Both the position numbers and the translations under genes were made by a program. A stretch of 23,182 nucleotides of DNA. Source: a virus. Shown one piece after another: positions 4,413-21,159 of this stretch (position 1 is the first letter of the stretch; the number at the start of each line of letters is the position of its first letter). Under the pieces are notes generated by a model that ran no database searches, was not told where the DNA came from, and saw nothing but the letters and a program-made list of their open reading frames with translations. Location of the stretch: IMG/VR virus record IMGVR_UViG_3300017772_003150, positions 1 through 23,182 of that record. The stretch is one strand, 5' to 3'.

Positions 4413-4422
4413 GATATATAAG
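4413..4422 (+). promoter_or_regulatory. GATATATAAG motif, copy 1 (possible late promoter element)
   Basis: The 10-mer GATATATAAG lies between the dioxygenase and the DUF1796 gene, ending 35 bases before the ATG at 4458. The same 10-mer recurs at 5036, 11559 and 17501. It resembles the T4 late promoter box TATAAATA but is not identical. Spacing here would allow a normal leader. The function is inferred only from recurrence and position. Confidence 0.4.
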
Positions 4423-5035: not shown

Positions 5036-5045
5036 GATATATAAG
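5036..5045 (+). promoter_or_regulatory. GATATATAAG motif, copy 2
   Basis: The 10-mer ends two bases before the ATG at 5048 (context GATATATAAGATATG), an arrangement repeated exactly at 17501. If it is a promoter, the transcript would start at or very near the ATG and be leaderless. Otherwise it may act as a translation start signal or an RNA processing site. Confidence 0.4.
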
Positions 5046-5047
5046 AT

Positions 5048-5425
5048 ATGGAAAAGACAAAAACTTTTATTGAATACTTAGAAGAGCAAGATGTTTCTAG
5101 CGATCAACTTAAATCTCTTAACGAATCATTACAATCCGAATGGACTCCGGAATTAGAATCTAAAGTTGATGCTGCTTTAGAAGAATTTGCAAAGCAATAT
5201 CAAAATGAAGATGGAAGTTATGACATCGATGCGTTCAACACACAACTTACTAATGAAGGTTTATTCGGTTCACTTCTTGGAGGTCTTACTGGATTTGCTT
5301 TAGGAAAAGGTATTGGTAAAACAATAGCTAAAGTTCTAGGCGTTAAGAAAGGTATTATATACGATATGTTAACTTCAAGATTAGTTGGTGCCGCTCTAGG
5401 TACTGCTCTTGGTTCTAAACTATAA
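5048..5425 (+). CDS. Small candidate internal head protein with glycine-zipper C-terminus
   Basis: 125 aa. Residues 4-13 (TKTFIEYLEE) match the capsid-targeting sequence pattern of T4 internal head proteins: Thr6, Phe7, Tyr10, then Leu-x-Glu at 11-13, where a gp21-type prohead protease could cut. A second LxE lies at 24-26 before Ser. The middle (about 14-65) is acidic and helical. From about residue 71 the chain changes sharply to a Gly-rich hydrophobic segment, GLFGSLLGGLTGFALG then KGIGKTIAKVLGV, with GxxxG spacing, and ends with LVGAALGTALGSKL. Such segments can insert into membranes. I infer a packaged, possibly membrane-active peptide. It could instead be a minor membrane or scaffold protein. 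Confidence 0.55.
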   Translation: MEKTKTFIEYLEEQDVSSDQLKSLNESLQSEWTPELESKVDAALEEFAKQYQNEDGSYDIDAFNTQLTNEGLFGSLLGGLTGFALGKGIGKTIAKVLGVKKGIIYDMLTSRLVGAALGTALGSKL

Positions 5426-10058: not shown

Positions 10059-11567
10059 TTGGTACTTACACTAACAGAAGATAATCAGTTTTTAAGAATT
10101 GATGAGATAGGAGAGCTCGAACTAGAGCAGCTAACTATTTCATTAACTAAAAGAATTGAGAATTGGAGATTTAATCCTCTAGTAAAGAGAGGAGTATGGG
10201 ATGGTTACGTATCGTATATCAAAGATGATAAGTGGGTGCCTGCTGGTCTTTGGAGATATATTATGAGTATTTGTAAGGAATACAAATATGAACTAAAAAT
10301 AAACGGAATACGAAGGCTAATAGACCCTAACATATCAGCAGAACATTTTGAAGAATGGGCTCTATCATTTTTCGACGGTAGTAAACTAACACCTAGAGAC
10401 TATCAGATTGAAACATCATTTAATATTCTTAAATTTAGAAGATGCTTGGCAGAATTAGCAACTTCAGCCGGTAAAACTTTAATTAGCTTTATGGTTGTTG
10501 CGTATATGTTAGAGAAAAAGAAGGCGGAAAGAATACTCTATATAGTCCCTAATGTTTCTTTGGTTTTGCAGGCTAATGAAGATTTTCAAGATTACAATTT
10601 TAGAAACAGGGTAAAGTTGAAAATACAACAAATATATGCCGGTCAAAAAATAAAACCTAACAGAAACATAGTAATAGGAACATATCAATCTTTAGTAAAA
10701 AAAGATAAAGAGTATTTTGACCAGTTTGATGCCGTAATCGTAGATGAAACACACAAGGCAAAGTCAAATTCCATAAGAGATATATTAAAAAAATGCAGAA
10801 AGGCCACGTATAAATTTGGGTTATCAGGTACAATACCTAAAGATGGAACTTTAGATAAACTTACTCTTATGAGTCAAACAGGTCCTGTTATTAGCGAAGT
10901 AAAGGCTGCATTTCTACAGCAAGAAGGTCACATTGCCAATTGTAAGGTAAAAATAATTCAGATGAATTATGCACCTGAAAAAACAAGAGAGGCGTTTCAA
11001 CAGCTTGCACAAAACAGATATGAGAATAAAGATGTTTTTCAACTTGAACAGAACTATGTAATTAATAACGCAGCACGCCTTGATTTTATTGCTAATGTTA
11101 TTGCAAGAGTACCTCGAAATAGTCTTGTTCTTTTTCACCGTATAGAACATGGTAAGAGACTATATGAAAAGCTTAGGCAAGATAGTGATAAACGGGTTTA
11201 CTACGTTGATGGAGGAACAGACAAAGATATTAGGGAAGAATATAAGAAAAAGATGGAAGCGGGAGATGAGGTAGTTATTGTGGCATCCTATGGAACGTTC
11301 TCCACCGGTATCTCAATTAAGAAAATACACAACATCTTTTTTACCGAATCATTTAAATCAGAGGTTATTATTAGACAGTCTATTGGTAGAGGTCTAAGAC
11401 AGCATGAATCTAAAGATGCAGTATTAATTGTTGACTTTGTAGACGATATTAGAACGTCTGAATGGGACAATTATTTATATAAGCATGGTAAGGTCAGGCA
11501 GAAAATTTACAAACAAGAGAAATTTGATTACAGTATTAAGAAAGTCAAATTTGATGGAGATATATAA
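10059..11567 (+). CDS. uvsW: UvsW-like recombination DNA/RNA helicase
   Basis: 502 aa, the same size as T4 UvsW. The N-terminal domain has RFNPLVKRGVWDGYVSYI, matching T4 RFNPRFRYGNWDGRI. Helicase motifs follow: Walker A TSAGKT (135-140), DETH box (229-232), SGT motif III (256-258), VIVASYGTFSTGIS, and motif VI QSIGRGLRQ (440-448). UvsW unwinds branched DNA and R-loops and helps shift replication from origins to recombination. The start is odd: the frame is closed by TGA at 10053-10055 and the only start is TTG at 10059, while a well-placed ATG at 10052 is one base out of frame. The TTG reading gives an N-terminus about as long as in T4. Confidence 0.92.
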   Translation: MVLTLTEDNQFLRIDEIGELELEQLTISLTKRIENWRFNPLVKRGVWDGYVSYIKDDKWVPAGLWRYIMSICKEYKYELKINGIRRLIDPNISAEHFEEWALSFFDGSKLTPRDYQIETSFNILKFRRCLAELATSAGKTLISFMVVAYMLEKKKAERILYIVPNVSLVLQANEDFQDYNFRNRVKLKIQQIYAGQKIKPNRNIVIGTYQSLVKKDKEYFDQFDAVIVDETHKAKSNSIRDILKKCRKATYKFGLSGTIPKDGTLDKLTLMSQTGPVISEVKAAFLQQEGHIANCKVKIIQMNYAPEKTREAFQQLAQNRYENKDVFQLEQNYVINNAARLDFIANVIARVPRNSLVLFHRIEHGKRLYEKLRQDSDKRVYYVDGGTDKDIREEYKKKMEAGDEVVIVASYGTFSTGISIKKIHNIFFTESFKSEVIIRQSIGRGLRQHESKDAVLIVDFVDDIRTSEWDNYLYKHGKVRQKIYKQEKFDYSIKKVKFDGDI

Positions 11568-11568
11568 G
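11559..11568 (+). promoter_or_regulatory. GATATATAAG motif, copy 3
   Basis: The 10-mer covers the uvsW stop codon and ends 31 bases before the ATG at 11600. A second T4-late-like box, CATAAATA, lies at 11584-11591. Either could start transcription of the island that begins at 11600; the first leaves room for a short leader. Confidence 0.4.
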
Positions 11569-11599: not shown

Positions 11600-13009
11600 A
11601 TGGAAAGAATAACAACATTCAAAACGTTTTCTCAACTTAAGCAACAAGAATCTATATCTAAGCTTAGAGAAGAAAATAACACAAAACGATCTGCTATCCT
11701 AGATAAAATCGCCGGTATATTAGACGAAATGGGAATCGTTGAATTAGAAAATTTAGACGAAGAACAGAAAACAGATTTAATTAAGAAGATATTTTTAGCT
11801 AAAGAAATGGCTGAAGAAACTGAAGAAACTGAAGAAGTTGCTGAAGAGGAAACCGAAGAAGAGGTTGCCGAAGAAGAAACTGAAGAAGTTACTGAATCAG
11901 TAGAAACCGAAGAAATCAAAGAAGAAGAATCTGAAGAAGAAGTTGCTGAAGAGGAAACCGAAGAAGAGGTTGCCGAAGAAGAAACTGAAGAAGAGGTTGA
12001 AGAAGAAATTGAAGAAGTTTCAGAAGGTACTCGTTCTCAATTTGGTAAAATAGATAAAAAGGGAAACATCACATCTGTTTACATGCACTATGATGGTTAT
12101 CCTGACCACATGTTACCTACTATTAAAAAGAACTATAAAGACGGAAAGAACGTTGATAAAGTAGTTGCTAAAGGCGGTGGTAGTGGATTAGATGCATTCA
12201 ATAAAATTAACTTTTATGATGATGGTGCTTCAACGAAAGGTAGCATTAATAAATTAGATAAGTATGTTAAAGATGCTGGCCAAGATGGCGGTGCAGAATA
12301 TATTTACCTATTTGATGAAAGAGACGGTAAATGGTATATGGCAGACATCTACTCTTATGATGGATTACAGCCTGCATTTGAATCTACTGAAGTCAATGAA
12401 GAAGCAATTAACGAAAATGCATATAGAAAAGCTGGTAAATTAGGTTACAATGACCAATTCTTAGGAAAGAAATCTCTTTCTGCTACTTTAGCGGCTGAGC
12501 TTGGTTTCGACCCTAAAAAACCATGGACAGAAGGTATTGGATTTGACCATGTTTCAATGTACGCTAATGGTAAAAAAGAAGGTACTATCAAAGCAAATGC
12601 TTTAAGCGGTAAATTTACTTACGATGATTTATTAAAAATGGCTAAGAAATTCTTAGGTATTAAAGAATCAGTTGACGTTGAAGAAGGAAATGAATTTGGC
12701 GCTGCTAGAGCAAAGGCGATTGCAGATGGTAAAGATGAGTTTGAGGTTGATGGTAAAAAGTTTAAAGTTACTGATGTAGATAAAGAAGACAAAGAGAACG
12801 CTGAAGAATTTACTGGCGAGTCTGAAGTTACTGAAGCTGAAGTAAAGTCAGCAGAAGAATTTAAAGAATATGCATTCTCAGTTTTAAAACAAGCTTTTGG
12901 AGATGAATTTGATGAGGCTAAAGCACAGGAAGTAGTTGACGGTTTAGTTGATAAACATGGAGAAGACTATGGAGCAATGGTTGGAGCATTACAATCTTCA
13001 TTAGGATAA
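11600..13009 (+). CDS. Acidic modular protein with head-targeting-like N-terminus (candidate internal head protein)
   Basis: 469 aa in distinct blocks. Residues 1-17 (start MERITTFKTF) share Thr6, Phe7 and Phe10 with the capsid-targeting-like set, but the first LxE is at 22-24 (LRE). Residues 71-141 are almost pure Glu with Val/Ala/Thr. Residues about 158-255 include YMHYDGYPDHM and EYIYLFDERDGKWY, a module I recall from other phage proteins with a Tyr-x-His-x-Asp-Gly-Tyr-Pro core. Residues 272-353 (from ENAYRKAGKLGY) and 364-392 (FGAARAKAIADG, FEVDGKKFKV) look like two more small modules. The C-terminal helical block (417-469) ends DYGAMVGALQSSLG. Enzyme residues are not evident. A scaffold-like role cannot be excluded because of the acidic core. 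The Glu-rich part contains a 58-base perfect direct repeat. Confidence 0.65.
   Translation: MERITTFKTFSQLKQQESISKLREENNTKRSAILDKIAGILDEMGIVELENLDEEQKTDLIKKIFLAKEMAEETEETEEVAEEETEEEVAEEETEEVTESVETEEIKEEESEEEVAEEETEEEVAEEETEEEVEEEIEEVSEGTRSQFGKIDKKGNITSVYMHYDGYPDHMLPTIKKNYKDGKNVDKVVAKGGGSGLDAFNKINFYDDGASTKGSINKLDKYVKDAGQDGGAEYIYLFDERDGKWYMADIYSYDGLQPAFESTEVNEEAINENAYRKAGKLGYNDQFLGKKSLSATLAAELGFDPKKPWTEGIGFDHVSMYANGKKEGTIKANALSGKFTYDDLLKMAKKFLGIKESVDVEEGNEFGAARAKAIADGKDEFEVDGKKFKVTDVDKEDKENAEEFTGESEVTEAEVKSAEEFKEYAFSVLKQAFGDEFDEAKAQEVVDGLVDKHGEDYGAMVGALQSSLG
11831..11993 (+). repeat. 58-base perfect direct repeat coding the Glu-rich tract
   Basis: Bases 11831-11888 are identical to 11936-11993, an offset of 105 bases (35 codons, in frame). 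Identity covers silent codon positions, including the mixed GAA/GAG and GTT/GCC choices, so the copies arose by recent duplication or are kept identical by recombination. Repeat number could vary between relatives. Confidence 0.85.
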
Positions 13010-13028
13010 TAAAATCCCCTTTCATAAG

Positions 13029-14309
13029 ATGAATAAAATCCTATCATACAAAGAATTTATAGTGGAAAGATATGACTCTTCGAAAGAAGAGTCCTCTCTT
13101 ATTCTAGAAGGTGGTGCTGCGGGTCACATGGCCCATCCATTTGATGATAACTCTTTAACTTTTGCAGATTTTAAAAGAATAGTGACAAGTGCTTTACAAG
13201 GTAAATTAGATTTTGAACAAGCTCCTACTGAGAAGACGGACGGCCAAAATCTTTTTGCAAGTGTAAAAAATGGCAAAACAATCTTCTCTAGAAACAAAGG
13301 ACAGCTTATTGCACCTTTAGATTTAAAAGGAATTATTGCAATGTTTACTGGCCATGGTTCTGCTCTAGTGGAAGAGACATATATTAAAGCAGCTAAAGAC
13401 TTAGACGCTGCCCTTACCTCTTTAAAAGACCAGTCTATGTTCAATGATGGTAAATCATTTGTAAACATGGAAATTATTTTCACTAAGAATCCGAACGTGA
13501 TAAACTATGATAGAGGAAATTTAATACAATTTCATAATATAGTTCATACAGATGGCCAAGGAAATATAACGGGTGAAGAGCAGAGACTGGGAACCGAATT
13601 AGCTAAAGCGATTCAAAAGATAGAGAAGGATGTTCAACAAACATATACAATCATCCCACCACAAATTTTAAAGATAGCTAAAGATGTTAACTTTGACGAT
13701 AGAGTAAATTACTACTATAAGAAAATAGATTCATTAAGAGACACATATAAGCTTACAGATACGGATGAAGTTAAAATGTATCATGAAGCTTGGTGGAGAA
13801 GTCAAATAGAATCTGAGTTTTCAGACATACCAACAGATGCTCAAGAAGGAATGTTGTTAAGATGGGCATACGGTGATAAGAAAACTCTTAATATGAGAGA
13901 GGTTGCAAAACTTGTTGACAAAGGCCAACTTAAAAGAATTAGAGAATTTGACAAAATATCAGGTAAAAAATATAAAGAAAATATTTTACCCTTTGAAAAC
14001 TTATTTTTAGAATTAGGGGCAGATGTTCTTAAAAACGTTTCTAATTTTGTAGCAGCTAGTCCTGATGCAGAAAAACAGAGACTTCACAAACAAATTAGAA
14101 CAGAATCCGGTAAGATAAAAAAGAACGGAGACCTAAGTCAAATAGATAAAGTAGAAAAAGAGTTAAAGAGACTCGAAAGCATCGGAGGAATTGAGTCCAT
14201 AGTTCCTAGTGAAGGTGTAGTATTTAAATATAACGGAAGATTATTTAAACTCACTGGAACATTCGCTGCTATTAATCAACTAATGGGCATAATTAAATAC
14301 ACAAGATAA
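13029..14309 (+). CDS. Ligase-like covalent nucleotidyltransferase with capsid-targeting-like N-terminus
   Basis: 426 aa. Residues 6-13 (SYKEFIVE) closely match the T4 internal-protein targeting peptide (TYQEFIAE). A second candidate protease site, Ile25-Leu-Glu27 before Gly, precedes the conserved-looking enzyme start GGAAGHMAHPFDD. The enzyme part has the nucleotidyltransferase signature of DNA/RNA ligases and capping enzymes: motif I Lys69-Thr-Asp-Gly72, a motif III-like FVNMEII (Glu148), motif IV EGVVFK (395-400), and motif V RLFKL (404-408) with Lys407. Lys69 would carry the covalent AMP or GMP. A long helical insert (about 185-385) separates III from IV. I recall similar uncharacterised proteins in T4-like marine phages. 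The substrate is unknown. A GAAA-tetraloop hairpin lies between the two candidate cut sites. Confidence 0.7.
   Translation: MNKILSYKEFIVERYDSSKEESSLILEGGAAGHMAHPFDDNSLTFADFKRIVTSALQGKLDFEQAPTEKTDGQNLFASVKNGKTIFSRNKGQLIAPLDLKGIIAMFTGHGSALVEETYIKAAKDLDAALTSLKDQSMFNDGKSFVNMEIIFTKNPNVINYDRGNLIQFHNIVHTDGQGNITGEEQRLGTELAKAIQKIEKDVQQTYTIIPPQILKIAKDVNFDDRVNYYYKKIDSLRDTYKLTDTDEVKMYHEAWWRSQIESEFSDIPTDAQEGMLLRWAYGDKKTLNMREVAKLVDKGQLKRIREFDKISGKKYKENILPFENLFLELGADVLKNVSNFVAASPDAEKQRLHKQIRTESGKIKKNGDLSQIDKVEKELKRLESIGGIESIVPSEGVVFKYNGRLFKLTGTFAAINQLMGIIKYTR
13074..13093 (+). promoter_or_regulatory. Perfect 8-bp hairpin with GAAA tetraloop inside coding sequence
   Basis: GACTCTTC at 13074-13081 pairs exactly with GAAGAGTC at 13086-13093 around the loop GAAA, a GNRA tetraloop closed by C-G, which is unusually stable in RNA. 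It encodes the linker (residues 16-22) just after the targeting-like peptide, 45 bases from the ATG. It may modulate translation or mRNA stability. Confidence 0.5.
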
Positions 14310-14310
14310 C

Positions 14311-14601
14311 ATGAGTATATTTACATTTATTATCGTATTGCTAGTTATTGGTGCAGGTGCACTTTTATGGGCATACAAAGAGGGAAAGCTTACAGATGCT
14401 GACGGAGATTACATTCCTGACGAAGTCGAGGAAAAAGTAGCAGATGTTAAGAAAAAAGTAAAAAGAAGAGTTAAAAGAGTCAAAGAAGAAATCGCTGACG
14501 TAAAAGAAGAACTCAAAGAAGTCGCTGACGAGGCTAAAGATGTTGTAGACGCTGCAACTGGAAAAGCTAAGAAGAGAAGAGGTCGACCAAAGAAGAAATA
14601 A
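14311..14601 (+). CDS. Membrane-anchored protein with Ca-binding-like motif, coiled coil and AT-hook
   Basis: 96 aa. Residues 3-21 are hydrophobic (FTFIIVLLVIGAGALLW), a single transmembrane segment or uncleaved signal anchor. Residues 29-40 fit the DxDGDxIPDxxE calcium-binding pattern of thrombospondin type 3-like repeats. Residues about 41-80 are a highly charged heptad-like helix (VADVKKKVKRR, then EEIADVKEELKEVADEA). The end, KKRRGRPKKK, contains the GRP core of an AT-hook, which binds the minor groove of A/T-rich DNA. The combination suggests a link between membrane and DNA, for example tethering phage or host DNA. If the Lys/Arg tail is cytoplasmic, the charge distribution favours N-out/C-in. 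It begins two bases after the ligase-like gene. The role is inferred. Confidence 0.7.
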   Translation: MSIFTFIIVLLVIGAGALLWAYKEGKLTDADGDYIPDEVEEKVADVKKKVKRRVKRVKEEIADVKEELKEVADEAKDVVDAATGKAKKRRGRPKKK

Positions 14602-14616
14602 TTTAAAACGCATATA

Positions 14617-16482
14617 ATGGCTTTACAAAAACTTAGAGAACATTTTCAGTCCGCTAACATCAATTCATTTAGTAAGATGCTAAAGAATAGAGTAGTTATT
14701 ACTGAGAAGTTATCAGCTCCTTCATTCCACTTTAGAAAGAAGCATGATGGATTTGAATACTATAAATCTGGTAAGGGTGAAGCTATGAATATGGTCGATA
14801 GAACAGTCGTTCAATTGTATGAAGCAGGTATTAAACACATTCAAAGTTTAGATGCTTCTATAAAGGAAGACTTACCTAACGATTGGAAGTTTGGATTTGA
14901 GTATTTACCTGATACTAAAATATCAGAATACAACTATGATGAGATTCCAAAAAATTCTCTTATTTTAAATCACATTCAACAAATTGGATTTAATGGTAAG
15001 GTTAAAAAGACTATTAGCGATCCAAGCGTTTTAAAGAAATGGGCAGGTATTTTAGAGGTTCAATCTCCAAACGTTATTTTTGACGGAGTTCTAGATGAAA
15101 ATCAGAAGAAAGAATTGATACAACTTTTATCAATCTCCGATAAAGAGTTTGAATCTATGTTTGATTATGATATAAATACAGACGCTAAAACATCTTTTAC
15201 AATGAAAATATTTAAGATGTTTGAAAAGGCATCTACGAGAACTTCATTATCTGAAGATTTAGAAAAAGAAATAGATGGATTAATTTTAAGCTTTTCAGAA
15301 AACGGAAAAATAAGGTCTTTTAAACTTGAAGACTTTACTAGAAAAATAAATGAGAAGAGAAGCTCTAGCCACATATATCAGTTAACAATAACTGATATGT
15401 TAGAGTATTTAACACAATATGATTTAGATAGCATTCAACTTACTGAAGAATCAGCGGATTATAGATACATGGAATTGATGTCAGCTGTATTTAATGAGTA
15501 TCTTAAAGAAAATTCTACTAAATATATTGGTGTTGATTTTGAAAGCGCTGATTTTGCTGACTCTAGTGTTTTTAAATTAAACACAAAATATCTGAAAAAT
15601 GAAACAACTTTAAAGTATGTTTCGAATCCAGTCTTAGCAGAGTTATTTAAAATAACCTTAGGATCGTTTAGAAAAAAGAAAACAAAGACAAGCGATATAC
15701 TAGATGAAGATATGATCGCTAGGTTAAATGAAATAGTGGATAAAATAGATACGATAGTTTTTGTAGAGAATACAGATAAAAACGAGGTCTATAATTTTAA
15801 AAACTATATGCTTCATAATAAAGTAAAACAATCTACGGTAAATGAAGCTCTTACGGTAAAGTACAAAGAGCAGGGTAAAGAGCCAGTAAATATGTTTGTT
15901 GGTAGATTTCAACCCTTTACATTAGGTCATGCTAAAGTTTTAGAAACTATTCACAAACAGAATGGTTTTCCTGTTGTAGTTTTCTTAGTTAAGGCTAAGA
16001 ACAAAAAGAAAGAAGATTCTTTTAAAAGACCTTATGATGAGGCAACTCAACTTAAAATGTTTAAAGCAGTACAGAAGCAGTATCCTTTCTTAAAAGAAAT
16101 ATATGTAATTCCAACTGCAGCTATTGACGTAATGTTCAATGAAATGAGACCAAAGTATGAACCTGTATTATGGGGAACTGGTAGTGATAGAATGAAAGTT
16201 TATGGTTATCAAGTAAACAATGACAAATATAGAGAAGACCTTGGAGTAAAAAGTGATTTTGGATTATATGAGATTCCAAGAACAGATAATAACATTTCAG
16301 CTACTAAAGTTAGAAATGCAATGTTAGATGGAGATGAAAAGTCGTTTAAGAAAATGACACCAAAATCCCTTCACAAATTATTTGGAGAACTTAAGAAAAA
16401 ATTAGAAGATTCAGTTAACTCATCAGAAGATGTAGAAATTAAAGAATCAGTTTTAACCTTTAAACAATTTATTGATAACTAA
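14617..16482 (+). CDS. Fusion of a ligase-like nucleotidyltransferase with an NMN-adenylyltransferase-like domain
   Basis: 621 aa. Residues about 25-245 show a degenerate RNA-ligase-type layout: TEKLSAPS with Lys31 as candidate nucleophile (Ala where KxxG has Gly), FGFEYLPD (92-99), EIDGLILSF (218-226) and RSFKLEDF (233-240). Residues about 250-410 are helical and unassigned. Residues 424-570 are a HxGH-superfamily nucleotidyltransferase: MFVGRFQPFTLGHAKVL, with TLGH in place of HxGH, then WGTGSDR (519-525) and ISATKVR (560-566). GRFQPF...GH with ISxTxxR is typical of NMN adenylyltransferases (NadM/NadR type). The last 12 residues (SVLTFKQFIDN region) resemble the targeting peptide seen at the N-termini of neighbours. 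Possible roles include NAD+ synthesis or repair, or nucleotide tagging of nucleic acid. Confidence 0.75.
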   Translation: MALQKLREHFQSANINSFSKMLKNRVVITEKLSAPSFHFRKKHDGFEYYKSGKGEAMNMVDRTVVQLYEAGIKHIQSLDASIKEDLPNDWKFGFEYLPDTKISEYNYDEIPKNSLILNHIQQIGFNGKVKKTISDPSVLKKWAGILEVQSPNVIFDGVLDENQKKELIQLLSISDKEFESMFDYDINTDAKTSFTMKIFKMFEKASTRTSLSEDLEKEIDGLILSFSENGKIRSFKLEDFTRKINEKRSSSHIYQLTITDMLEYLTQYDLDSIQLTEESADYRYMELMSAVFNEYLKENSTKYIGVDFESADFADSSVFKLNTKYLKNETTLKYVSNPVLAELFKITLGSFRKKKTKTSDILDEDMIARLNEIVDKIDTIVFVENTDKNEVYNFKNYMLHNKVKQSTVNEALTVKYKEQGKEPVNMFVGRFQPFTLGHAKVLETIHKQNGFPVVVFLVKAKNKKKEDSFKRPYDEATQLKMFKAVQKQYPFLKEIYVIPTAAIDVMFNEMRPKYEPVLWGTGSDRMKVYGYQVNNDKYREDLGVKSDFGLYEIPRTDNNISATKVRNAMLDGDEKSFKKMTPKSLHKLFGELKKKLEDSVNSSEDVEIKESVLTFKQFIDN

Positions 16483-17486
16483 TGGATAGGTACGACTTTG
16501 AAAGAGCGATGAATAATGCGATTAATGAAAACGCGCATAGTAGTGTGGGTAACTGGCTAACTTTAGCTCAGCAAACTAACGCTCAACATAAACAGATACT
16601 TTATGATAGAATTAATAAAGAGCTGTTTGGCGGTAAAGAACCTTGGCCAGGTAGATTAAAGCTTACTAAATTTGATGATAGTTCTTTTAAGAAAGTATTT
16701 CAATATTTAAATAAGAAATCAAAATTCATGAATCTATTGTTTAAGCAAAAGATTCAAGGTATTGGTGCAGGAGAAATAATGCTAGCATACATTGTTGAAA
16801 ACCTAACAGTAGGTGGAGGAAGTGCGACAGTTGATTTAAATCTATTTGATGACAACGGTTCTGTTTTTGATGAGTGTGAATTAAAAGAAGCTAAATTAAC
16901 AGGAGCTGGTTTCTTAGAAGGATGGCAGTTAGGAGCAAATCATGCTAAGCTCTCTATTAAAACTATAGACGATTTTAAAGCTCTATATAATGAGGTTAAA
17001 TTTTCAATACCTGAACTAGACCCTAATACAGACGCAGGAAAAAAGTTAGCAGATGGATTTACATCTGGTGAATGGGGAACGGCTCCCGATGGAAAGAGAT
17101 TTAGACATCTATCTGCAATCAAGGAAATTCCTGTAGGTCAAGATAGAGAATTTAAATTAGGACCTGGCCCTAATGGAGAAATTACAGTTAAATATAATGA
17201 AGTACTCTTAGGAAACTTAAGCGATAGTAAAACGGTTGATAAAATAAAGTCAGCTCTTTCTGCTAAAGCCAAGTCCAAGGTAAAAACATTTGACCAGATA
17301 CACACTGAATTAATAAAGAGTATGGGAGGAATTAAAGAAAAGTTCTTGTTTATTTCAACTACCGGTAAACCAGGTAGTAAGACTATACAGAAATACCACT
17401 TTAAGAAAAATCTTCCTGGAACAACTGATAAATTACAACTACATTCTATTACCCTAAACAAATGTAAGTTTAGAGTTAAGCCATAA
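16482..17486 (+). CDS. Putative PD-(D/E)XK-fold nuclease
   Basis: 334 aa, overlapping the previous stop by one base. Residues 93-138 carry a nuclease-like arrangement: GIGAGE with Glu98 on a helix, Asp118 in the strand ATVDLNLFD, and Glu133-x-Lys135 in ECELKEAK. The spacing Glu, Asp, ExK is that of restriction-endonuclease-like folds, with the two strands joined by a short turn (DDNGSV). The rest (about 140-334) is mixed alpha/beta with LTGAGFLEGWQLGANHAKL and a basic C-terminus. No target-recognition domain is recognised. An Ile-x-Glu (14-16) lies near the N-terminus, but the aromatic targeting motif is absent. The call rests on motif geometry alone. Alternatively it is a structural or regulatory protein. 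Confidence 0.45.
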   Translation: MDRYDFERAMNNAINENAHSSVGNWLTLAQQTNAQHKQILYDRINKELFGGKEPWPGRLKLTKFDDSSFKKVFQYLNKKSKFMNLLFKQKIQGIGAGEIMLAYIVENLTVGGGSATVDLNLFDDNGSVFDECELKEAKLTGAGFLEGWQLGANHAKLSIKTIDDFKALYNEVKFSIPELDPNTDAGKKLADGFTSGEWGTAPDGKRFRHLSAIKEIPVGQDREFKLGPGPNGEITVKYNEVLLGNLSDSKTVDKIKSALSAKAKSKVKTFDQIHTELIKSMGGIKEKFLFISTTGKPGSKTIQKYHFKKNLPGTTDKLQLHSITLNKCKFRVKP

Positions 17487-17500
17487 TAAAACAAATTCTA

Positions 17501-17510
17501 GATATATAAG
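17501..17510 (+). promoter_or_regulatory. GATATATAAG motif, copy 4
   Basis: The 10-mer ends two bases before the ATG at 17513, giving GATATATAAGATATG, the same context as at 5036. Both genes start with the targeting-like peptide, so the element may mark a co-regulated class. Confidence 0.4.
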
Positions 17511-17512
17511 AT

Positions 17513-20500
17513 ATGAAAAAAGTAACCACATTTGAAAATTTTCTTAACGAAAGGTCGATTAATAAAATATCTAAAGACCTAGAAGCTGTTGCTACTGAAA
17601 TGGTGAAGACTGTTGGTCAGTGGAAAGCTGCCAAAGGTGATAAAAAAGCCGAACTTCTAGAAATACTTAGAGCACTTAATAAAGAAAAGGCCGAGTTAGA
17701 AAAAGAATTAGATTCTGCAGTTGCAGGAAAAGATAAAAATATACAGCTTATTCTTACTGAAGAAGTAGAAGCTACAGCTCACTTCGAGAATGAAGTTAGA
17801 GATATATTAGATGAAGCTAAGTATAACAAGAAAAAGTTATTAAAAGCAATCAAGAATAAGGACGACATGTTTATTCAGTTAGGAGACGGCACTGAACTAA
17901 TAGTTTACAACCCAGATTCTAATAATAAAGATAATGCAGAAATGTGGCACGATGATGTTGTATTTGCAATCGATCAAGACGGAGAAGAACATGAAGTTAA
18001 ATACTCAGATATTGCAGGTATTGGAGAATCTACTTTTAATGAAGGGATGATGAGTGAACTTGATTTAATGGCAAAAGAAGCAAAATCCTTTTCCGAGTTT
18101 TTAAAAGACGTATTTAGTATACCTGAATACATTAAACATAAAGGTAAAAGAGATGTAGAAAAGTTCTTAAAGGATTTTTATTTTAGTGCAAATGAATCAG
18201 TTACCGAAGGTAAAAGAGATAATAATAAAGTGACTACTGCTTGGAAAAAGACAGGTGTTACTGATTTACCTTCAATTGCCAAAATGTATGCAGATGCAAT
18301 GCAAGATGCGAACTTCCATAGAGAAATTCCAACTTCTAAAGCGATTGGTGCAGCTTCTAAAGCAAAGGTAAAGAAATTAGGTGATATGTATACTTCTATT
18401 TCTCAAGCGGCAGGTTGGAGTGGTTATGCTATTGCAAACGGCACAGTACAGTACTTAAAACACATTGGTGAAGAAGGTGCTGCATCTAAGTTATTAAAGG
18501 CTATCACTAAATATGATTTAAATGAATCAGTTAAAGTATTTGAAGAATTCACTAAAGAAAATAAGAATTTGCTTCTAGAAGCCAATCCGCTTCACCCTAA
18601 CCTTAGCAAAAAGAATCTTGCGAAGCTTAAAAAACTAGGTCACACTGGTATGAAAAGTGCAATTCTTTGGACAGACGGACACAGTAGCAACCCTACATAT
18701 ATACAAATACCAGGAGAAGATGGAATTCCATGGGGAAGTAAAGGACCAAAAGATAGAACTACCTTTTACTGGGATGGTGAAAACGCATGGTGTACTAATT
18801 ACCCAAAAGAGACTTTACGAGCTGACTATAAGAAATCCGTAGATACTGCAGAAGAATTTTCAGATGCTACAAAATCAATATCAGATTCAGGTAAATGGGA
18901 AAAGGTAGAGAAAATGCAAGAACAGTTCATAAACGAAAGAAGAATTCAAATCAAAAGAAAATATACTGAAAATCACCCAGCACGAACAGCTGGTAAAACA
19001 GCAAGAGTTAGAAATAAAATTTTAGAATATATTTCTGACGGTAAACTTACACAAGATGAGTTTAACAAAATTTTATCTGAACTTTCATTAGATTCTAAAA
19101 GATGGTTAAAGAGAAATCAAAAGTACTTTAGCATATCGGAAGAAGGTATTAGTCTTTCAACGTTTGGAAAAAGAATTTTAAAAGGAATTACAATTAACGA
19201 AAATCAAAATAAAAAAGGCATGAAAATCTTTACAGCATTTAAAGATTACTTACTTGAATCAGAGTCAGTTGATGAAAAATTTAAGATAAGTAAACCAGGA
19301 ACAAAAAAAGCAGCTGAGCTATTAATAAAAGCTTTAGCTAAAGTAGATAAAAAAGACTATGAACTTTCTAAAGGCTCTTTAGAAGAAGGTGGATTCGACC
19401 TCGATCAGGATGAAGATGAGTTTGCAGGAGGTTCTTATTTTATCGGCGATAACGGCGAGATAGTTAATGCAGCAGACAGTATGAAAATCTACGGTAACGT
19501 TAAAGATTCAGTAAACGACATTATCAAGAATTTAAAGTCAGGTAAGATGGAAATTTATGGTAGGTTTGCAGGTGAGTCTGTTGAAGAAGCTGATTACGAT
19601 ATGTTATTAGAGGCTATTAAATCTACTAAGTTGGCAAGAATCTTAAAAATGTCAAACGACAAGAAACTTCTTAAAAGAATTTACAATATGTCAAAAATTC
19701 CTATTGATAAAATTGGAGATGAGAACATTACAGAAGTAGACCCTGAAAAAGCGTATAAAGAAAAGTATCCACACAGTGATGTTGTTATATTCTATATCTC
19801 TACAAGAGAGAAGGAAAATCCTTATGCTAAAGACGGACATACTCGTAATATACCTTCTAACTCAATCATAGGTGTTACTGACGGTGATAGAAAAATATTT
19901 GAACCTACGTTTAATCACCATGGAGGAGATACTGACTATTCTAAAGGTGTAAAACCAGCGTCTGATCGTGCAAGATACCGTAAAACTAATAAAGAAGGAA
20001 TGAGTGCTAAAGACAGGTATCCTAAATCAGGAACTAGTTCACCAGGTTCTTCTCTAAATTTACAAGGAAGCTGGAGTTTTAACTTAGGAAACGCTAAGAG
20101 AATTGCTTCTGTTTCTGATGTTGCTTATGTAGTTTGGCTTTCAGCTATTCCAAGCGCTGAACCACTAAGAGGTGAAAGAGCAAGAGCAAAAGAAGGTGCT
20201 ATAGCATTCGAACATCCAAAAGATTTTAAGAAAGCTAACATGGATAGGTATAAAATGATATTAGCTAAAAGAGCTGACAAGCCAGAAAAAATCGATAAAG
20301 ATGTTGAAAAGACAATTGAAAAAGCTCACAAATTATTTACAGATGCTTTCAAGACAAAGGAGATGAATCAGTATGGCTACCTTATAGTTGGTAAAGACCC
20401 TAGAGGTAGAGATGTTACCGCTAGAGATATAACTAGTTTTATTACAAGCCTTATGGACGACTGGCAAAGATATTCTGAAAATCATGCAAACGCAAAGAAA

Positions 20501-20626
20501 GAAGAAGAAAGAGATAAAGGCTCTAGATATGGTAGTGCTAGCTACTATCAAAAAGAAGCCAAGTCTTACGCATTAGCAATTAAGCAAAGATTGAATAAGT
20601 TTGCTAAAATGGATATCGCTTGGTAA
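17513..20626 (+). CDS. 1037-aa modular candidate internal head polyprotein
   Basis: The N-terminus MKKVTTFENFLNER fits the targeting-like pattern (Thr6, Phe7, Phe10, LNE 11-13). A second copy with its own Met lies inside at 570-582 (MKIFTAFKDYLLE), as if two genes were fused. Globular-looking modules follow candidate (L/I)xE cut sites: 102-170 (IVYNPDSNN, MWHDDVVFAIDQDG); 240-335 (GWSGYAIANGTVQYLKH); 357-465 (LHPNLSKKNL, TDGHSSNPTYIQIPGEDG, FYWDGENAWCTNYP); 583-690 (SYFIGDNGEIVNAADS); 701-1037 with RGERARAKEGAIAFEHP and NMDRYKMILAKRA, a segment I recall from other T4-like phage proteins. Sites with small residues after Glu include 99-101, 336-338, 354-356, 580-582 and 698-700. No catalytic signature is evident. 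It probably is a processed virion protein whose pieces are packaged (inference). Confidence 0.65.
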   Translation: MKKVTTFENFLNERSINKISKDLEAVATEMVKTVGQWKAAKGDKKAELLEILRALNKEKAELEKELDSAVAGKDKNIQLILTEEVEATAHFENEVRDILDEAKYNKKKLLKAIKNKDDMFIQLGDGTELIVYNPDSNNKDNAEMWHDDVVFAIDQDGEEHEVKYSDIAGIGESTFNEGMMSELDLMAKEAKSFSEFLKDVFSIPEYIKHKGKRDVEKFLKDFYFSANESVTEGKRDNNKVTTAWKKTGVTDLPSIAKMYADAMQDANFHREIPTSKAIGAASKAKVKKLGDMYTSISQAAGWSGYAIANGTVQYLKHIGEEGAASKLLKAITKYDLNESVKVFEEFTKENKNLLLEANPLHPNLSKKNLAKLKKLGHTGMKSAILWTDGHSSNPTYIQIPGEDGIPWGSKGPKDRTTFYWDGENAWCTNYPKETLRADYKKSVDTAEEFSDATKSISDSGKWEKVEKMQEQFINERRIQIKRKYTENHPARTAGKTARVRNKILEYISDGKLTQDEFNKILSELSLDSKRWLKRNQKYFSISEEGISLSTFGKRILKGITINENQNKKGMKIFTAFKDYLLESESVDEKFKISKPGTKKAAELLIKALAKVDKKDYELSKGSLEEGGFDLDQDEDEFAGGSYFIGDNGEIVNAADSMKIYGNVKDSVNDIIKNLKSGKMEIYGRFAGESVEEADYDMLLEAIKSTKLARILKMSNDKKLLKRIYNMSKIPIDKIGDENITEVDPEKAYKEKYPHSDVVIFYISTREKENPYAKDGHTRNIPSNSIIGVTDGDRKIFEPTFNHHGGDTDYSKGVKPASDRARYRKTNKEGMSAKDRYPKSGTSSPGSSLNLQGSWSFNLGNAKRIASVSDVAYVVWLSAIPSAEPLRGERARAKEGAIAFEHPKDFKKANMDRYKMILAKRADKPEKIDKDVEKTIEKAHKLFTDAFKTKEMNQYGYLIVGKDPRGRDVTARDITSFITSLMDDWQRYSENHANAKKEEERDKGSRYGSASYYQKEAKSYALAIKQRLNKFAKMDIAW

Positions 20627-21159
20627 TGTCAGATAAACAAAAAGACATACAAGAAGATTCAAGCCCTGCTAATATCGGAGGAATGGGACCTGTAACTTTA
20701 CCTAATGGTAGTGAACTTGGTTCTGGTGATGTTCCAGCCGGAAAAGGCGATGCCAAGGAAGAACAGAAAAAGAAAAAGAAAAAAAGAAAGAGAGAGTTAG
20801 AGATGCAAGAAAAATTAGTTCACTTAACCTTTGAAAACTTCGTAAACGAGATAACCGACTATAACGATCCTGTTCTAATTAGATTAAGACAAGATAAGCT
20901 TAGAAGGGCAGATTTTGCTAAACTAGATGCTATGAAGAAAGAGGCTGAGAAGAACAGAAAGAAAGCCATGAAGAGATGGAGCCAAAAGAAATATGAAAAA
21001 TGGCTAGAAGAAGTTGCTTCTAACGGTGGTGCGGAGAATGCATTTGATATGGCAAAGAATGCCGAGTTTGAACCGGGACTAATTGACTGGGTGGAGAAAG
21101 AATTCCCATACGATGACCCAATGCAAAGAATCCAATGGGATATTGAAGCATACGCATAA
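20626..21159 (+). CDS. Lys-rich protein with internal targeting-like motif
   Basis: 177 aa from the ATG at 20626, which overlaps the previous stop by one base; a TTG at 20620 adds two residues and is unlikely. The first 45 residues are Gly/Ser/Pro-rich (GGMGPVTLPNGS, then GSGDVPAGKGDA), a segment I recall in structural proteins of marine T4-like phages. A Lys/Arg run follows (48-56), then LTFENFVNE (67-75), like the targeting peptide of neighbours. An in-frame ATG at 20803 (Met60) would place that motif close to an N-terminus, so a second shorter product is possible. The rest is helical and basic, then acidic near the end (EPGLIDWVEKEFPYDD). It is the last gene before the terminator. Confidence 0.65.
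   Translation: MSDKQKDIQEDSSPANIGGMGPVTLPNGSELGSGDVPAGKGDAKEEQKKKKKKRKRELEMQEKLVHLTFENFVNEITDYNDPVLIRLRQDKLRRADFAKLDAMKKEAEKNRKKAMKRWSQKKYEKWLEEVASNGGAENAFDMAKNAEFEPGLIDWVEKEFPYDDPMQRIQWDIEAYA

Follow-up and report, generated by a model that had tools for sequence, protein, structure and literature searches.

The stretch of DNA analysed here, hereafter the window (23,182 nucleotides), is a 23-kb IMG/VR fragment from a T4-related phage and encodes gp32-like, primase, UvsY-like, UvsW and tail-tube proteins, its UvsW sharing 57% identity with the UvsW of LR756500, an uncultured huge phage of 462 kb. It carries, on the plus strand, a gene at 5048..5425 and an island of genes extending from 11600 to 21159, many of whose products display a common short peptide, hereafter the tag. 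The virus is T4-like, large, marine and uncultured, and infects bacteria; signal peptides with a terminal Gln give an indirect hint that its host may belong to Bacteroidota. The window was compared with contig G001 (IMGVR_UViG_3300048126_000458), which corresponds to its last 11,019 bases at 99.92% identity and adds 34 kb, with the larger relatives G006 (205 kb), G008 (171 kb), G003 (101 kb) and LR756500 (W02), and with four outgroups, i.e. Mel-JY01 (W01), a 100-kb part of LR756508 (W03), G014 and G015, T4 being used as control.

The products of the genes starting at 5048, 11600, 13029 and 17513 begin with MEKTKTFIEYLEE, MERITTFKTFSQL, MNKILSYKEFIVE and MKKVTTFENFLNE, respectively. An earlier note on this DNA had pointed out a likeness of these N-termini, and of internal and C-terminal copies in other products, to the start of T4 internal proteins; all the residues that it named are found in the sequence, and the start MKTYQEFIAE that it gave is indeed that of IPII and IPIII. 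The four fixed positions of the tag correspond to Y4, F7, I8 and E10 of this peptide, i.e. to the residues of IPIII that control targeting (4 and 7) and processing (8 and 10) (PMC9026906). With aromatics at T4 positions 4 and 7 in an N-terminal peptide of about 10 residues, the tag conforms in this respect to a T4-type capsid-targeting sequence. As stated in the note, an (L/I)xE site closes the tag in three of the four N-termini (5048, 13029 and 17513), as in most of their homologs; it is missing from the 11600 product and from the C-terminal tag of the 14617 product.

The 5048 gene encodes a 125-aa protein with a glycine-zipper-like C-terminus, whose tag TFIEYLEE occupies residues 6-13 (5063-5086). 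All 32 distinct homologs in this family keep the aromatic pair and the aliphatic residue, and 31 keep the Glu, nearly all tags being of the form MKTFxx[YH]LxE. The 469-aa product of 11600..13009 (+) includes TTFKTF, an acidic Glu-rich stretch and a phrog_1987 domain. It keeps the targeting aromatics without LxE, which some homologs of its family also lack, and in G006 the phrog_1987 domain lies behind a complete tag (MNNIKNFNDFINES...GTRSQFGKIDKKG). The 334-aa product of 16482..17486 (+) lacks a canonical tag and carries an [LI]xE site near residues 14-23, as do its few homologs; its leader may be inferred to be a propeptide.

Two products of the island have a predicted ligase-like fold. The gene at 13029..14309 (+) encodes an RNA/DNA-ligase-fold protein bearing the N-terminal tag SYKEFIVE (13044-13067). 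Its motif I, EKTDGQN, is nearly invariant and fold comparison ranks RNA ligases first, with modest significance (probability 0.94, E 0.008), the tag region having no confident fold in the model. Among the single-domain members of this family, 27 of 29 have the aromatic pair and the aliphatic residue; 26 also have the acidic residue, which is Glu in 21, and the three exceptions consist of one start-codon artefact and two proteins in which Leu takes the first place. A different N-terminus, LGxWLAxx[IL][IL]xE, is found in the relatives that are fused to a nucleotidyltransferase. A second cut site in EGGAxGHM, a segment located before the ligase domain, was envisaged and rejected: this segment is almost invariant across all architectures and may be no more than a piece of the fold.

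The second of these genes (14617..16482, +) encodes a T4 Rnl2-like ligase-fold domain joined to an NMN-adenylyltransferase-like domain, and ends with the C-terminal tag LTFKQFIDN (residues 613-621, 16453-16479). Foldseek retrieved T4 Rnl2 (2hvr, E 1.2e-7), then NMNAT/PPAT structures (E about 1e-4), and Pfam a CTP_transf_like match. The window copy has a degenerate motif I, EKLSAPS, which reads EKIDGSS in L006 and L020. The family ends with [LM]TFxxF, T614, F615 and F618 being invariant in 18 aligned homologs, and residues 604-621 have low model confidence. The Glu required for cutting, absent from the window copy, is never present in this family, which agrees with T4, where altering position 10 prevents processing and not targeting. 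The LR756500 homolog of the 14617 product is devoid of a C-terminal tag. The comparison of homologs thus bears out that the motif is kept alongside the enzyme domains, a point on which the earlier note had made its proposal depend.

The gene at 17513..20626 (+) encodes a 1037-aa putative tagged polyprotein. Tag-like sites occur at five places, TFENFLNE (6-13), SFSEFLKD (192-199), FEEFTKE (343-349, followed by LLE356|A), QEQFINE (469-475) and AFKDYLLE (575-582, within TAFKDYLLE at about 574-582), and a further LLE700|A site is found. Segments of this product correspond, in relatives, to separate proteins with tagged starts (MATFEDFLSEGKKIQIKRKYTENHPA, MNKIHTTFESFVNESLEVNEAFKSSKL). Furthermore, comparison with a close homolog in L033 reveals two indels of the size of a module, about 56 and 133 residues long, whose edges lie at LxE sites and which each contain their own tag-like site. 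As LxE-type sites number 23 in 1,037 residues, the proximity of four edges to such sites is unlikely to be due to chance (about 0.002, an estimate). Tagged modules appear to be strung together in the 17513 product, cutting at the joints being inferred. Pfam gives no match in this product; residues 415-509 have a weak PADLOC match to AbiTii (E 3e-6), which spans an indel relative to L033.

The last gene of the island (20626..21159, +) encodes a 177-aa protein made up of a GGMG...GSGDVP leader, a Lys-rich stretch, an internal tag (LTFENFVNE, residues 67-75, 20824-20850, numbered from the ATG at 20626 and not from the TTG at 20620) and a cargo part. The leader block (20626-20850) is preceded by PSVSKSQQRLMGMAYAVK in relatives. 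Such shared leader blocks (GGMG...GSGDVP plus Lys-rich stretch) may be further packaging signals. For the 17513, 5048 and 20626 products, no cultured-phage homolog was found, only the uncultured LR756500.

The N-termini of the window and its relatives were scanned for the tag core [FY]xx[FY][LIV]xE, and the motif occurs there more often than expected by chance. The window has it in 3 of its 24 proteins (shuffles: mean 0.04, maximum 1 of 200). LR756500 has 21 N-terminal matches where 1.9 are expected from the motif density elsewhere in the same proteins (Poisson P 2e-15), G006 has 13 (1.2 expected, P 5e-10), G008 has 10 (0.7 expected, P 3e-9) and G003 has 4 (0.4 expected). None of the four outgroups exceeds chance. 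The register is sharp, 20 of the 21 LR756500 matches starting at residue 7, and a de novo search for N-terminal patterns, to which the motif was not supplied, recovered the same signature in LR756500 (30 versus 0.4 expected), G006 and G008. Chance as an explanation of the shared N-termini is ruled out by the shuffles and this de novo enrichment. It could still be argued that these proteins are paralogues that inherited one N-terminus and that the motif has no function, as several LR756500 tagged proteins are indeed paralogous leucine-rich repeat (LRR) proteins. However, tags precede unrelated domains and also occur at C-termini and internal joints, the motif positions are fixed where neighbouring residues vary, and the N-terminal excess reaches P ≤ 3e-9 in three genomes; chance or shared descent therefore keeps hardly any credibility.

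Applied to the called genes of T4 as a positive control, the same scan retrieved IPII and IPIII only. In addition, two T4 genes (NC_000866), uvsW.1 (114210-114440, MLLEFKQFLYEAS...) and 61.1 (18966-19130, MKTFKEFIKED...), have starts resembling capsid-targeting sequences. Both are listed as conserved ORFs of unknown function (PMC1524935), and these two orphans become candidate packaged proteins. The former comes after uvsW, as the tagged island does in the window; no homology is detectable between T4 UvsW.1 and the 11600 product. A distinct N-terminal signature, KLRxIIxEEIxxVLxE, was observed in one outgroup (LR756508.1, 100001-200000): 21 of its 107 called genes have it, versus 0.4 expected, and many of them adjoin head genes; the signature is possibly a second kind of packaging tag.

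The tagged genes also share an upstream element. Four exact copies of GATATATAAG are found in the window (0.15 expected): three precede the 5048 gene (5036..5045, +), the island (11559..11568, +) and the 17513 polyprotein gene (17501..17510, +), and one (4413-4422) lies upstream of 4458, an untagged DUF1796-like gene. The element also precedes the 5048 homologs of G003 and G006. An upstream element, GATATATA, is common to tagged and head genes, without expression data. In relatives, RATATATA precedes the portal, core and protease genes (it is missing at the G008 core gene) and the homologs of 5048 and 11600, not the replication genes between them; overall, it was found at 7 of 9 tagged or head genes versus 4 of 52 others (P 2e-5). 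It is absent within 70 bases of the major capsid gene. Genome by genome, its enrichment at tagged genes is significant in LR756500 alone (P 3e-4) and not, taken alone, in G006 and G008. The T4 late-promoter consensus TATAAATA was tried upstream of tagged genes and proved uninformative in such AT-rich genomes, RATATATA being found instead. In this phage group, GATATATAAG probably serves as a late-promoter element, and late expression of the tagged genes can be inferred.

The window itself gives no match to the PF03420 profile, since it is a fragment without the head cluster. However, the gp21-type protease that the note had advised looking for is present in contig G001, which over 11 kb shares 99.9% of its bases with the window: this contig encodes a T4-type head cluster in which a gp21-type (Peptidase_S77) protease is fused to a scaffold region. 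Peptidase_S77 exceeded the cut-off in 11 of 18 records, G001 among them, and in the clade of the window it belongs to a single protein of 630-730 residues, the remainder of which is a scaffold-like segment. As PHROG 207 (head maturation protease, 519 positions) spans most of this protein, the fusion as such is not new. The scaffold segment consists of repeats, e.g. QYSEYLAEKTDQNI, mostly spaced by 14 residues, and contains 4-8 copies of the tag core (4 to 9 if histidine is allowed) versus a mean of 0.06-0.10 after segment shuffling, making the fusion the protein richest in tag-core copies in each of five genomes. Furthermore, a small gene lying between those for portal and protease has a tagged product in G001, G003 and G006. 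The tag core is also matched by the cut site of the T4 capsid protein gp23, FGSFLTE65, which loses 65 residues (PMC9026906) and whose site is aligned with LxE-like sequences (KLYE, ELYE, QLVTE, QLISE, QLLKE) in eight relatives. In the same cluster, the G001 portal gene (12028-13626 of the contig) appears as two ORFs about 50 bases apart, versus one ORF in relatives, which could reflect a frameshift, a sequencing error or a small insertion. In LR756508.1, an intein, recognised by LAGLIDADG_3 and partial Intein_splicing matches, splits the S77 prohead protease (156480-158204).

These data bear on the possibility that the N-terminal motif serves as a signal for localisation or interaction without any role in the head, directing proteins to a membrane, a replication compartment or a common partner, the LxE being incidental. 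The motif is a short amphipathic helix, which would suit such a signal, and many tagged genes do lie outside the head cluster. However, the repetition of the core in the protease-fused scaffold, its fit with the cut site of the capsid protein and the upstream element common to head genes make this improbable. The S77 protease, the scaffold repeats, the conservation of the motif and the shared upstream element rather support what the note had suggested, that the motif acts as a capsid-targeting sequence on the same principle as in T4 internal proteins, to which a probability of about 0.85 can be given, docking, cleavage and packaging being inferred from sequence.

According to this capsid-targeting reading, the tagged proteins would be produced together with head genes. 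The amphipathic tag (aromatic-xx-aromatic-aliphatic-x-Glu) would dock in the prohead core as a copy of one scaffold repeat unit, and the scaffold-fused Peptidase_S77 would then cut after LxE, freeing the cargo within the head. Without the Glu (C-terminus of 14617, 11600), the protein would be targeted and its tag left uncut; where tags lie between modules (17513), cutting would release several products. The packaged cargo, including the two ligase-fold enzymes, would probably be ejected with the DNA, which is a weaker inference. Packaging is thus well supported by inference and injection is plausible, neither having been shown; no virion proteomics was found for the phage group of the window. 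The absence of the motif from the T4 scaffold gp22 means that docking by mimicry cannot be transferred to T4 as it stands, and the consistent basic charge of T4 internal proteins was not seen in the cargo.

Alternatively, the tagged proteins could be parts of the prohead core that aid assembly and are then degraded or expelled without any delivery to the host. The small tagged protein encoded beside the protease and the acidic 11600 protein do resemble core proteins, and T4 gp67 and gp68 are of such a kind (PMC9026906). This is nevertheless unlikely, as the tag is borne by enzymes and effector-like domains and as the T4 proteins bearing such a tag are injected (PMC12373910). Besides the ligase folds of the window, the LR756500 tagged set includes the five LRR proteins, a DUF2201 metallopeptidase-VWA protein, a polynucleotide kinase 3'-phosphatase and a DUF5661 protein.

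Capsid targeting can be extended, more tentatively and with less than even confidence, to modular delivery: the tag would reproduce one scaffold repeat, so that any protein, or a chain cut at its tag joints within the head, could be loaded by mimicry, and the cargo would comprise proteins for RNA repair (ligase-fold enzymes, ligase-NMNAT fusion and the 3'-phosphatase of LR756500) acting at DNA entry. That the ligase folds and their companions would repair RNA at the onset of infection remains a guess drawn from modelled folds. If true, modular delivery would explain how capsid-targeting sequences are recognised, for which scaffold mimicry is a concrete proposal. More broadly, capsid targeting would reach beyond a few T-even proteins and take in a broad group of phages, both large uncultured marine ones and huge ones, and the sequence rule would make packaged cargo predictable from genomes alone. 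The predicted cargo includes enzymes and effector-like domains with a role at the start of infection that is open to testing, and the loading-and-delivery system suggested here is now testable.

Several known systems are similar in part. In T-even phages, both capsid-targeting sequences and the shuffling of internal proteins have been described (Repoila 1994, cited in PMC12373910), and a general capsid-targeting role has been suggested in T4-like phages (PMC9026906); no prior report for the clade of the window, nor of scaffold repeats matching the tag, was found in the open-licence literature. Polyvalent proteins (Iyer et al. 2017, PMC5512222) are long, multidomain and thought to be delivered with DNA, and one G006 tagged protein has a weak similarity to MPTase-PolyVal (E 8e-4, below the cut-off); however, no domain in common with them was found in the 17513 product, and its modules are split by tags and LxE sites. 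Comparable too are the ejection proteins of the giant phages SPN3US and phiKZ, in which a prohead protease cuts many head proteins after Glu (PMC9026906), but the head systems are only distantly related. T4 Alt, a packaged ADP-ribosyltransferase, is comparable to the enzymes inferred to be packaged here and is processed at both ends (PMC9026906), thus providing a precedent for a C-terminal signal; it is a different enzyme, and the C-terminal tag found here lacks the Glu needed for cutting. The system of T4 IPI-III (Straboviridae) shares the N-terminal aromatic-xx-aromatic-aliphatic-x-Glu tag, a gp21-family protease and the association of unrelated small proteins with one tag, the leader being the sole part common to T4 internal proteins (PMC12373910). 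Pfam and PHROGs gave no match to the mature domain of the IPI/IPII/IPIII family. Whereas T4 has IPII, IPIII and a few candidates, the relatives studied here have 10-21 tagged proteins, with enzymes in the cargo, C-terminal or internal tags, and a protease-fused scaffold built of the tag core. In this far relative, the features that are novel compared with T4 are the proposed scaffold mimicry, the C-terminal and internal tags and the RNA-ligase-fold cargo.
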